From positions 1 through 22,053 of the IMG/VR virus record IMGVR_UViG_3300032323_003551: 22,053 bases of DNA. The stretch is one strand, 5' to 3'. This document shows, in pieces, positions 9,661-22,052 of this stretch. Source of the DNA: a virus. Position 1 is the stretch's first letter, and the number at the start of each line of letters is the position of its first letter. Under the pieces are notes generated by a model. The model did not search any database. It was not told where the DNA came from and saw only the letters and a list, made by a program, of their open reading frames with translations. Made by a program: the position numbers and the translations under genes.

Positions 9661-10695
9661 TTAGTTATTTAATCCGTTTAATCCACCCAATTTAACTGAC
9701 ATCGATTGGATTGCGATACCACCGTCAGTTCCATATTCAGGATGAGGATATACAGTTCCAGTGCCAGTATAACCACTTACAGGGTCACAACAGAAATTAT
9801 TATATTCATAGAAAGTATCAACAGTATTTCCAGTGTATTCTGTTCCACACTCTTCACAACTATCAAAAGAACTGATTACTGTTGCTGTATCAACAACTGG
9901 TCCGAAACTTAATCCGTCAACAATATAACATCCATAAGGTGTTAGATTTTCAAACGTTCCCAATATTATCTGACCTAATCTAAAACTACCTGTGATTTCA
10001 ACACTGAAAATTCCACCTCCACCACAATTTCTAATTAACCAATAAGGTGCAGAACTTGGAGTTACTGTTGGTGTCGGAGTTAATGTTGGAGTTACTGTCG
10101 GAGTTGTTGTTTTTGTTGGAGTTACAGTCGGTGTAATAGTTGGTGTTGTTGTTTTTGTTGGGGTGATAGTCGGTGTTATAGTTGGTGTCGTCGTGTTTGT
10201 TGGTGTTATAGTTGGTGTAGCGGTTACTGTTGGAGTTACCGTTCTTGTAGGAGTTATAGTTGGTGTCGGAGTTACCGTTCTTGTTGGGGTGACTGTCGTT
10301 GTCGGAGTTATAGTCGGAGTTATTGTAGCCGTTACGCTTGGCGTAGGTGTTCTAGTAGGTGTTGGAGTTCTTGTTGTTGTTGGAGTTATACTTGGTGTTA
10401 ATGTAATAGTTGGTGTAATAGTTGGTGTTACTGTTTGTGTTGGAGTTGGTGTAGGTGTAGGGTTTGCTGCTATACAAGTGTCACAATCACCATAATCAGT
10501 AGATAAAGTCGCAACTCTATCGATACCAGTCGCAGGTTCTGCGTTGTTTATAATATCATAACAACCTGGTGCAGTTGAACCAACAAATGTTAAATAATAG
10601 TTACCATTAACCGCAGGTAACGATGAACTATCAAAATCAACTAATATTGCCGGACCCCCTGAGCAACTACCAACAAGATATGTAACTAACGCCAT
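9661..10695 (-). CDS. Thr-Pro repeat protein with two cysteine modules (probable virion surface protein)
   Basis: The 344-aa product has three parts. Residues 10-75 form a small domain with C11, GCY at 44-46 and CDTC at 71-74. Residues 79-214 are a long T-P-T-x-T-P repeat. Residues 223-285 form a second domain with the same cysteine layout (C224, GCY at 255-257, CEEC at 280-283), so the two caps look like a duplication. A short third part has a CCDP motif. There is no secretion signal, which fits a phage structural protein rather than a host exported one. The extended Thr-Pro rod suggests a spacer in a fibre or a head/tail decoration protein; this is inference. It has its own TATTTAT element 11 nt upstream. 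Confidence 0.75.
   Translation of the reverse strand: MALVTYLVGSCSGGPAILVDFDSSSLPAVNGNYYLTFVGSTAPGCYDIINNAEPATGIDRVATLSTDYGDCDTCIAANPTPTPTPTQTVTPTITPTITLTPSITPTTTRTPTPTRTPTPSVTATITPTITPTTTVTPTRTVTPTPTITPTRTVTPTVTATPTITPTNTTTPTITPTITPTKTTTPTITPTVTPTKTTTPTVTPTLTPTPTVTPSSAPYWLIRNCGGGGIFSVEITGSFRLGQIILGTFENLTPYGCYIVDGLSFGPVVDTATVISSFDSCEECGTEYTGNTVDTFYEYNNFCCDPVSGYTGTGTVYPHPEYGTDGGIAIQSMSVKLGGLNGLNN
10054..10461 (-). repeat. Degenerate in-gene tandem repeat encoding the Thr-Pro rod
   Basis: About 400 bp of imperfect repeats with periods of 6 and 18 nt, seen on the plus strand as words such as GTTGGTGTTA and GTCGGAGTTA. Synonymous variation between copies is high, so it is an old, protein-selected repeat rather than a fresh expansion. 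The opposite strand is open for 110 codons only as a by-product. Confidence 0.85.
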
Positions 10696-16257: not shown

Positions 16258-16659
16258 TTAAAGGAGACTAATTCTTTTCTTTTCTTGTCTTTTGTAGTTA
16301 GGAACGAATACCGTAAGTAATCCATCTTCTATTGTAGCTTCAATTGATGAAGCATCATAATCATCTCCGATTTTAAATTGTTGGGAAATAGATTTCTTTT
16401 TTTCTTCATTATTCAACTTATAGGTTCTCTTACCTTCGATATGAATGACACCCCCTTCCATCTCAACTTTTAAGTTTGACTTGTTGAATCCTGGTGCATC
16501 GAAGAAAAGGTAAGCTCCGTCTTTGGTGTGGTTGATTTCATAAAGTTCACTTCCTGAATCATTATTTACAAGAGTGGTGGTGTAGTTGTAGTTTGACCTT
16601 CCCCTGTTGTTAAAGAATGTGTCGAATAAATCGTTTAATTCTGAGTTTCCGTAAATCAT
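16258..16659 (-). CDS. hsp20: Small heat-shock protein (Hsp20/alpha-crystallin)
   Basis: ATP-independent holdase that keeps unfolding proteins soluble until Hsp70 or Clp machines act. The 133-aa protein has a short N-arm with Asn/Tyr, an alpha-crystallin domain (about 36-122) with GAYLFFDAPGFNKSNLKVEM and the hallmark ATIEDGLLTVFVPN, and an I-x-L tail motif (RISLL). Length and order are normal for class A sHsps. It is transcribed away from the Clp ATPase gene from a shared 197-bp region, so co-regulation is likely. T4-like phages of several hosts carry Hsp20 genes. On the minus strand TATAAATA, identical to the T4 late promoter core, lies 26 nt upstream of its start. Confidence 0.93.
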   Translation of the reverse strand: MIYGNSELNDLFDTFFNNRGRSNYNYTTTLVNNDSGSELYEINHTKDGAYLFFDAPGFNKSNLKVEMEGGVIHIEGKRTYKLNNEEKKKSISQQFKIGDDYDASSIEATIEDGLLTVFVPNYKRQEKKRISLL

Positions 16660-18914: not shown

Positions 18915-19673
18915 GTGAAAAATCTTATCAGGAGAATATTGAAAGAAGAAATCAAGAACGGCAAAGTTATTTGTGACGGTTGTGGATGGTCATGGGATTT
19001 ATCTGATGGTGGAGATGACAAATACATTTGTCATAAATGTGGTCACGATAACACACCAAAAACTCAATCAAATCTTGATAGACTTATGGGTGGATTCAAA
19101 ATGAATTTCCCTGAAAAATTACAACCTAAAATTGATGAGGTTACAAAGTTTGTTGTTGATTATATTACAGACCACGACTTAAAAATTAAATTCTTAAACT
19201 CTTGTTCTACAGGATTTTCCGGTGTTAGGACGAAGGACAGTATCATCATTTGTTCTCCAAATCAAATGACTACTTTGGGTGATTTCATTTACACAATATT
19301 CCACGAAATTAGGCACGAAGACCAAATTAGTCAGCTGAAAATGGATAACCCACTAACTGATTATGATTTAGATGATTTTGAAAAATTATCAGAACAATAC
19401 TGGAAGATGGAAATGGATGCCGACAATTTTGCAAAACAAATGGTTGCAAAACTTGTGATGAAATCAGGTATACCTATGGAAATTGCAAAACCAAACTTTC
19501 AACTTTCTCCCTATATTGAAAAATACCCATCAATGTCCAAAATGGTTAAAACCTATTTAGAACAAGTTGTGATGGGAATTAAAGATATAAAAAAATCGGG
19601 TGGCGAATTTACTGATATTCAAGACCACCCGATAGTTAAACGTTATATTGATAAGTTGGAGAACTTTATTTAG
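18915..19673 (+). CDS. Zinc-ribbon HExxH metalloprotease-like protein
   Basis: Start is GTG at 18915; the ATG two bases earlier runs into a stop at once. The 252-aa protein opens with MKNLIRRILKEE, a basic amphipathic helix resembling a capsid-targeting peptide (L-K-E at 9-11). A zinc ribbon follows (C20, C23, C39, C42, in CDGCGWSWD...YICHKCGHDN). The protease part has IFHEIRHEDQ with the HExxH zinc site (H130, E131, H134) and EMDADNFAKQM with E166 as the likely third ligand. This is a gluzincin-like layout; the target is unknown. If virion-packaged, it would be delivered with the DNA. It lies directly behind clpC but beyond a strong terminator, so it is transcribed separately. Its stop overlaps the convergent M20 gene by 4 nt. 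Confidence 0.8.
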   Translation: MKNLIRRILKEEIKNGKVICDGCGWSWDLSDGGDDKYICHKCGHDNTPKTQSNLDRLMGGFKMNFPEKLQPKIDEVTKFVVDYITDHDLKIKFLNSCSTGFSGVRTKDSIIICSPNQMTTLGDFIYTIFHEIRHEDQISQLKMDNPLTDYDLDDFEKLSEQYWKMEMDADNFAKQMVAKLVMKSGIPMEIAKPNFQLSPYIEKYPSMSKMVKTYLEQVVMGIKDIKKSGGEFTDIQDHPIVKRYIDKLENFI

Positions 19674-20516: not shown

Positions 20517-20547
20517 CAAAGATAAGAAAAAATTAGATATCATCAAA
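20517..20547 (-). promoter_or_regulatory. Bacteroidetes vegetative-type promoter for the M20 peptidase
   Basis: On the minus strand: TTTG (20547-20544), exactly 19 nt, then TATCTTTG (20524-20517), matching TTTG/TAnnTTTG. The start codon follows after 4 nt, so the mRNA may be leaderless. The -33 part lies inside the 3' end of the 349-aa gene. Confidence 0.65.
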
Positions 20548-21582
20548 ATTAAATAATGTAGGTTGGTAGAGTAAGTTGTTAAAATTTTCTTCAGATAACT
20601 TCAAACTTCTTTCTTTTAAATCCTTTTGAAGTTTGACTTCTATTTTGTTTGGATTTTTATCAAATCCTATTACTTTAAATCTAACCTCTTTCGGTTTTTT
20701 TGGTAATTTGTGCCATCTTTCCGAACCATACTTTTCGGTAATTCTATCAACCATGTCTATGTATGATTTCAAATCAAAACCATCTCTTTCATAGTCATCT
20801 TCAATCGATTCTAAAATTTCATTTAAACTGCGTGATACTGTGCGATTGAATGATTCATCATCAAAATATTCGTCATTCTGATAATCATATGAATATTCGT
20901 GCCATCCACCTATATCTGTTCGACTGGTCTCAAAAACTTTTTTTAATAATTCTTCAATTGGGAGATGAACAGAGTTAGTTCTAATATACCACATAATCAA
21001 ATTAGCTACGGTAGTTTTTAATCCGGCATAAGGTATAAATTCAAAATCAAATTCTTTGAAATAATCATTCACCTCTTTGTTGATTGTTTTTTGTGCCACT
21101 TCAATCATTTCTCTATTCTTTTCAGTCTGATAGTCATTCAATATATTTTGTGTAGGGAAATTAAATGCATCAAACATTTTATTAGCTAATCCCTTCCTAA
21201 AGTCTTCATCTTCTAAATCAAATTTTCTACCATGTATCAACTTATTTACCTGCCTGAGTTTCTCAATGTTTTCATCATTGAAATGACCAAATATTGTATA
21301 TCCTTGGAGAAAATCTTCTTTAACTGAATAGTAATCCATAAATTCATAATCACTATAATATGAATTTATCATTTTCATGAACCATACATCATCATCAGAA
21401 ATATCAAATAAATTAAAAAATTTTACATCGTCGTCAAACTCAATAGTTAATTCACTTTGAGCCAAGTTCTGAGAGTTTGTTCTTACCCTTTCAATAATAG
21501 GGTCAACATCCTGTAACTCATAAGCACTAATCTTTCCATTAGCAAATTTTTTTAAACCATAAAATGAATCGAGAGGTTCCAT
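20533..21582 (-). CDS. Unknown 349-aa acidic protein next to the tmRNA
   Basis: Not recognised. The protein is acidic and aromatic-rich (many D, E, F, Y), mostly helical, with no Cys pair, membrane segment or enzyme motif I can name. Features are an N-terminal stretch with DDDVKFFNLFDISDDDVWFM, a middle part with FDFEFIPYAGLKTTVANLIM, an Asp/Tyr-rich segment YSYDYQNDEYFDDESF, and a basic C-terminal strand region (KKPKEVRFKVIGFDKNPNKI). The C-terminus LLYQPTLFNFDDI resembles a short linear docking tail. It diverges from the tmRNA gene, and the M20 gene follows after 20 nt. An adaptor or substrate role in the proteolysis island is possible but unproven. Confidence 0.75.
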   Translation of the reverse strand: MEPLDSFYGLKKFANGKISAYELQDVDPIIERVRTNSQNLAQSELTIEFDDDVKFFNLFDISDDDVWFMKMINSYYSDYEFMDYYSVKEDFLQGYTIFGHFNDENIEKLRQVNKLIHGRKFDLEDEDFRKGLANKMFDAFNFPTQNILNDYQTEKNREMIEVAQKTINKEVNDYFKEFDFEFIPYAGLKTTVANLIMWYIRTNSVHLPIEELLKKVFETSRTDIGGWHEYSYDYQNDEYFDDESFNRTVSRSLNEILESIEDDYERDGFDLKSYIDMVDRITEKYGSERWHKLPKKPKEVRFKVIGFDKNPNKIEVKLQKDLKERSLKLSEENFNNLLYQPTLFNFDDI

Positions 21583-21602: not shown

Positions 21603-21633
21603 TTTGGAAAATCTCTATTTATTCTTATCTTTG
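21603..21633 (+). promoter_or_regulatory. Bacteroidetes vegetative-type promoter for the tmRNA
   Basis: TTTG at 21603-21606, 19 nt, TATCTTTG at 21626-21633. The -7 word and spacing are identical to the M20 promoter. Transcription should begin near 21640, leaving a short leader for RNase P to remove before 21655. A TATTTAT copy lies within the spacer (21616-21622). Confidence 0.7.
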
Positions 21634-21654
21634 TAATCAGTTCATTGAAAATAT

Positions 21655-22052
21655 GGGGATGTCTAGGTATTGATTGCAATACTTAGGGTAAGCAGGCACG
21701 TAGTCAGAATTCATCTATGACTTAAATCCACGGTGAAAAAATTCAAATGGCAATACTTTTGCTAAAATGGCTACTTTAGGCTTAATCGCTGAAGAAGCTT
21801 CAGTTGTAGCTTAATTTAAGTAACAACTACTCGGGTCGGTTAGGACATATAACCTAGGAACAGAAGTCCAATATACGGGTCACAGGTCGGAGCTCGTTTA
21901 AAATAATTTCGAGACCAGGTTGTTTGTAAGTTTGGTTCCCACATATATCAAACTTAATATTTCGTAACATTGAGAAACGATGTTGAACTAAACGTGTAGT
22001 CTGTCTGCGTTAATGTTGTAAGACAGCGGTTCGATTCCGCTCATCTCCACCA
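21655..22052 (+). ncRNA. ssrA: tmRNA (transfer-messenger RNA), complete
   Basis: Rescues stalled ribosomes and adds a degradation tag. The 5' GGGGATG pairs with CATCTCC near the 3' end in a 7-bp acceptor stem, with G3-U70, the alanyl-tRNA synthetase identity pair. Discriminator A and an encoded CCA follow (22049-22052). The T arm AGCGG-TTCGATT-CCGCT is intact. A clear pseudoknot is at 21838-21869: GGTTA/TAACC with GGAC/GTCC. Another stem is AAGTTTG/CAAACTT. The tag frame probably starts at GGC 21749 after AATTCAAAT, as in Bacteroidetes, giving 21 residues that begin GNTFA and end EEASVVA before TAA at 21812-21814. Length 398 nt is normal; the tag is long and lacks the usual LAA end. Confidence 0.93.

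Follow-up and report, generated by a model that had tools for sequence, protein, structure and literature searches.

A Bacteroidota-type phage tmRNA with a long, clade-conserved tag encoded near a ClpC-type unfoldase

The tmRNA Locus and Its Gene Neighborhood

The window, i.e., the whole stretch of DNA analyzed here, is a viral contig of 22,053 bases that ends one base past a tmRNA gene (Table 1). All of the data considered are metagenomic sequence. The order of genes leading toward the tmRNA is Hsp20, ClpC, a putative zinc metallopeptidase, an M20-like peptidase, and a 349-aa protein. The initial annotation had noted a phage ClpC about 3 kb from the tmRNA, and the gene does lie 2.8 kb away. 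In ~100 loci, wherever enough sequence is available, ClpC, peptidase, 349-aa protein, and tmRNA keep the same order. The window also encodes a sulfotransferase-like protein (PF03567; 13626-14315) and, at 9661-10695, a protein that contains a long run of Thr-Pro repeats (TPTPTxTPT). The tmRNA of a 321-kb relative is followed by a gene (L380:6060-9335) for a 1091-aa outer-membrane beta barrel that includes a carboxypeptidase-regulatory-like domain and resembles a host surface protein. On this contig (G020, loci L380 and L381) are also 24 tRNA genes that serve all 20 amino acids, together with genes for two carbamoyltransferases.

Table 1. Features of the tmRNA locus, with positions in the window.
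Feature	Position	Strand	Basis
Hsp20 small heat-shock protein	16258..16659	-	PF00011; synteny in part of the relatives
ClpC-type AAA+ unfoldase, 671 aa	16857..18872	+	Lacks the N domain; retains the IGF and pore loops
Putative zinc metallopeptidase (zinc ribbon and HEIRH)	18915..19673	+	Invariant H-E-x-R-H in alignment
M20-like peptidase, 280 aa	19670..20512	-	phrog_4191; weak PepT-like and dipeptidase matches
349-aa protein	20533..21582	-	Synteny, beside the tmRNA throughout the clade
Bacteroidota-type promoter, TTTG-N19-TATCTTTG	21603..21633	+	Motif precedes the tmRNA in 39/69 unique relatives
boxA-like GTTCATTGA, between promoter and tmRNA	21640..21648	+	Motif in relatives
One-piece tmRNA gene (ssrA), Bacteroidota type	21655..22052	+	ARAGORN, Rfam RF00023, covariation
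H-type pseudoknot PK1	21702..21737 (21702-21706/21718-21722; 21710-21715/21732-21737)	+	Sequence, helix counts
Tag reading frame GNTFAKMATLGLIAEEASVVA and stop TAA	21749..21814	+	Rfam alignment; kept in 74 unique relatives
7-bp hairpin inside the tag frame	21788..21804	+	Present in the window, not conserved

The phage ClpC contains two AAA+ modules and a UVR-like middle domain (Pfam matches AAA, AAA_2, AAA_lid_9, UVR, and ClpB_D2-small). The ClpP-docking GIGF (IGF) loop and the pore loop KYRGQFEER are retained. Pfam gave no match in the protein to the Clp_N adaptor-binding domain, and only 24 residues precede D1 versus a median of 192 in hosts. The phage proteins are mostly 670-671 residues long, compared to ~850 in hosts. 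ClpC shares ~60% identity with that of Flavobacteriales and relatives; because of this identity and the type of promoter found upstream of the tmRNA, we place the phage with the Bacteroidota.

The HEIRH protein lies between ClpC and the peptidase and is strongly conserved in the relatives; its fold matches are weak and zincin-like. The M20-like peptidase is next to the tmRNA in relatives and lies between ClpC and the tmRNA in the window. The 349-aa protein shows 30-60% identity within the clade and has a confidently predicted fold (pLDDT 89); searches matched it to no family, to no PDB entry or other structure, and to nothing in annotated phages. Hsp20 may belong to the same system, as suggested by its place in the neighborhood.

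ClpP (PF00574, CLP_protease) was found in 21/36 related contigs, including every contig of at least 180 kb, among them the 317-321 kb relatives. Some related contigs of 128-150 kb, which are fragments, gave no ClpP hit, and ClpP is not seen in the window's own phage because the contig ends at the tmRNA. The relatives' proteins score as true ClpP rather than as a head protease, a separate one being present in the phage. They keep the motifs ASMG, MLHQ, and RDxWL, which we take to be those of the catalytic Ser, His, and Asp.

Structure of the tmRNA

ARAGORN and Rfam place the tmRNA at the same coordinates and on the same strand. The match to RF00023 scores 95.7 bits (E 1.6e-36; cut-off 47) over the full length of the model (1-374). 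The acceptor G3-U70 pair, the T arm, and the 3′ CCA can all be read from the sequence, and the pseudoknot is formed by the strands AGTCA/TGACT and TTCATC/GGTGAA. The complete tmRNA with these four elements that the initial annotation had described is confirmed. Across 24 distinct relatives that were aligned, pairing reaches 98.8% in the acceptor stem, where three pairs covary, and 96.7% in the T stem, where all five do. G3-U70, the alanine identity pair, occurs in 24/24. Sliding the partners by 1-3 columns in this alignment lowers pairing from 87.5% to 46-58%, so the stem pairing is not due to chance. A DNA-level search for similar phage tmRNAs returned matches to the last 30 bases only.

The promoter motif occurs at two sites in the window versus 1.7 expected, and in the window alone it is therefore no evidence for a promoter. 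The strict motif was found upstream of the tmRNA in 39/69 unique relatives versus 0.9% of random stretches. The boxA-like element is present in 59/69 unique relatives against a background of 0.2%, and also in 15/60 bacterial tmRNAs. This element may act in antitermination or in processing.

Resume Codon and Reading Frame of the Tag

The tag spans 21 codons (21749-21811) followed by a TAA stop (21812-21814). The Rfam alignment sets GGC (21749-21751) against the model's own resume codon, GCA. In every one of the 74 unique phage tmRNAs and 30 host tmRNAs compared, an A occupies position -4 from the resume codon, the same place as A86, the frame-setting base of Escherichia coli (PMC2481249). We read the tag as GNTFAKMATLGLIAEEASVVA, 21 residues, because of the GGC alignment, the -4 A, and the tag GNTFAKM... 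that ARAGORN itself gives in close relatives. A GGC resume codon and a tag of about 21 residues ending in EEASVVA had been proposed from the sequence at the outset, and that frame holds; the covariance alignment gave no other frame and no short LAA-ending tag.

ARAGORN's output for the window is the short tag AEEASVVA. We consider it hardly credible that this is the true tag, as the Rfam alignment, the Bacteroidota context before GGC, and the -4 A in every unique phage tmRNA all contradict it, and the same program gives GNTFAK... in close relatives. AEEASVVA was thus ruled out as a mis-start inside the frame.

A 7-bp hairpin within the tag was also part of the initial annotation. It exists in the window, but all seven pairs are found in only 1/64 unique 21-codon tags. 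The hairpin is therefore incidental, and it was rejected as a structural element.

Conservation of the Tag in Viral Relatives

A scan with the terminase identified many related viral contigs. Thirty-five were searched whole, and 16 of these have a tmRNA above the cut-off. The long tag is present in all 16, a set that was not chosen by tag. Scans with two neighboring genes and the tag pattern enlarged the set to 74 unique tmRNAs, in which the tag has 21 residues in 64 cases and 22 in 10. The tags follow the motif GN[TVI][FL]xK[ML]xx[LIV]GL, with the consensus G-N-[TVI]-[FL]-[ANS]-K-[ML]-[ASE]-x-[LIV]-G-L. K6, G11, and L12 are invariant in the 64 tags of 21 residues although they are written with two, three, and four codons, respectively, and E15 is found in 61/64. 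The C-termini vary (VAA 17, VGA 12, VTI 9, VVA 7, and others), and 61/74 end in A; the core is constant. On this evidence a tag of 21-22 residues is a clade trait of the virus relatives. Two relatives (L113:4532-4927 and L128:3452-3859) apparently resume at GAC (Asp) rather than GGC, giving DNTLSKM... and DATFAKM...; Asp tag starts are also seen in some Bacteroidota.

Third codon positions of the tag are the most variable (permutation p = 0.01), and the tag frame has the lowest pN/pS of the three (0.59 vs. 0.74 and 1.00), although the relatives share ancestry and such statistics overstate their independence. The other two frames contain stops in 69/74 and 73/74 tmRNAs. The codon and pN/pS figures agree in pointing to selection on the tag as a peptide.

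These data bear on whether the tmRNA could be a nonfunctional, drifting copy of a host gene that the phage captured, with a long frame that arose by chance. In favor of this explanation, the Rfam score is low (95.7 bits, compared to roughly 100-170 for host copies). Drift would not be expected to leave covarying stems, an invariant G3-U70 and -4 A, a conserved promoter, synonymous changes at invariant residues, and stops in the two other frames. We regard this explanation as exceedingly improbable, and as in effect refuted by the conservation. The tmRNA is real and of the Bacteroidota type and, judged from sequence, very probably functional.

Comparison with Host tmRNAs

The phage tmRNA resembles the one-piece tmRNA of Bacteroidota (RF00023) in its GGC (Gly) resume codon within an AAATGGC-like context, its G3-U70 pair, and PK1. 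It differs in having a shorter and divergent downstream domain. The tags also differ. Bacteroidota-type degrons (e.g., GENNYALAA) have 9-10 residues and a [Y/F]A[L/M]AA end, in LAA or MAA, whereas the phage tags have 21-22 residues without an LAA or MAA end and fall outside this type. The initial description of a long tag lacking the LAA end thus stands.

Nor is the long tag a standard of the host clade. Short tags ending in [L/M/Y]AA were found in 132/134 tmRNAs from Bacteroidota genomes. Of the other two, one (L475) has 15 aa from an upstream GGC and ends in RMAA, and the second (L476) has no clean tag, with a shifted-frame stretch that reads ..GDNFGYRMAV. Tags that were odd or missing in the ARAGORN output for four loci (L356, L428, L441, and L470) proved short and standard on re-reading. 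The core pattern of the phage tag had no match in 84,980 prokaryote genomes. On these two counts we rejected the long tag as a host trait.

A Proposed Route for Tagged Proteins

The best reading, to which we assign an even chance, is that the phage tmRNA relies on host SmpB for loading and that the tagged chains are destroyed by phage ClpC-ClpP. Under this proposal, the host polymerase would transcribe the tmRNA from the tmRNA's own Bacteroidota-type promoter. Host AlaRS would then charge it via G3-U70, and host SmpB would bring it to ribosomes stalled during infection. Host SmpB is proposed as the loader because a search of 36 related viral contigs gave no SmpB. The ribosome would resume at GGC 21749 and append GNTFAKMATLGLIAEEASVVA. 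ClpC, without its N domain, may bind the tag mainly through the internal K..xxLGL..E core instead of a C-terminal LAA, and pass the chain to the chamber of phage or host ClpP. The neighboring M20-like peptidase might finally trim the peptides and so recycle their amino acids. The RNA structure, the frame, the conserved tag, the promoter, the synteny of ClpC and peptidase, and the relatives' ClpP gene can be read directly from sequence; charging and loading, recognition of the tag, degradation, and trimming are inferred. The initial annotation had suggested that a tag lacking LAA may avoid host ClpXP and be read by another protease such as the phage ClpC. The presence of ClpP in the relatives and the conservation of the tag as a peptide make the role of ClpC more plausible. 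Against this reading, small hydrophobic ends such as VAA (17 of 74) and VVA (7 of 74) might be acceptable to host ClpXP. A search for protein C-termini resembling the tag gave none in the 321-kb relative G020, where so few are expected by chance that their absence carries no weight.

Tags of the ssrA type are usually degraded by ClpXP (PMC9382460), and in E. coli LVA and other variants of LAA still work as degradation signals (PMC9097571). A host protease, be it ClpXP, Lon, or another, could read the phage tag, most of whose small hydrophobic C-termini are in A, leaving the phage tmRNA as extra rescue capacity only and ClpC-ClpP for general turnover or host takeover. We think this unlikely. 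What is conserved is the internal core and not the C-terminal end, use by the host would not explain why the whole clade has retained a 12-residue insert, and the tmRNA is accompanied by phage ClpC and ClpP.

A further alternative is that the tag is a mark and not a degron, one that binds a phage protein, directs its carriers to a compartment, or shields rescued phage proteins from ClpXP, the benefit being ribosome rescue. The tag has no LAA end, its core could serve as a binding motif, and the 349-aa protein adjoins the tmRNA in the clade. Given that the tmRNA is flanked by proteolysis genes and that degradation is the role of known tmRNA tags, this is, in our estimation, distinctly unlikely.

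The reading with phage ClpC-ClpP can be taken further, to an orthogonal viral quality control in which host ClpXP ignores the phage degron and adaptor-free phage ClpC-ClpP reads it. We advance this tentatively, as a possibility short of an even chance. A conserved tag foreign to the host, a reduced ClpC, and ClpP in the same genomes make such a split from the host ClpXP line testable. If the split is true, the two would form a natural viral orthogonal pair of tag and protease, and K[ML]xx[LIV]GL would be a candidate motif for a ClpC degron that could also help to degrade proteins in the laboratory. The phage would then pick which nascent chains of the infected cell are destroyed and recycle their amino acids. 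These possibilities bear on why phages carry tmRNA genes.

Other Phage tmRNAs and Long Tags

Mollicutes (Mesoplasma florum) have a tmRNA with a longer, non-LAA tag that is read by Lon instead of ClpXP (PMC9382460). It is a precedent for a long non-LAA tag paired with another protease; the M. florum tag is bacterial and ends in NYAFA with Lon as the reader, whereas the proposed reader here is the phage ClpC. Complete ssrA genes are known on phages, including the mycobacteriophage Bxz1 group, Bacillus phage G, pelagiphages and methylophages, and huge phages (PMC4131195, PMC9004378, PMC7162821), and a tmRNA was found in 402/18,146 phage genomes (PMC9004378). As read in this analysis, the tag of Bacillus phage G is AKLNITNNELQVA (13 aa). 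The tmRNA of Bxz1 also has a long tag.

ClpP, ClpA, ClpX, and ClpS are known from jumbo phages, with proposed roles in host targeting or assembly (PMC7824862). That work does not mention tmRNA. Phage tmRNAs and phage Clp parts are thus already known, and what appears to be new is the clade's own tag beside ClpC. We found no account of a clade-wide conserved long phage tag beside ClpC in the openly accessible papers that were searched.

The huge phage LR756508, which also has ClpC, carries a tmRNA (L399:1501-1944) with an open frame of ~36 codons from GGC that reads GVNNADYESAGF...KPAAV. A search for relatives found none; the frame is possibly another long phage tag.
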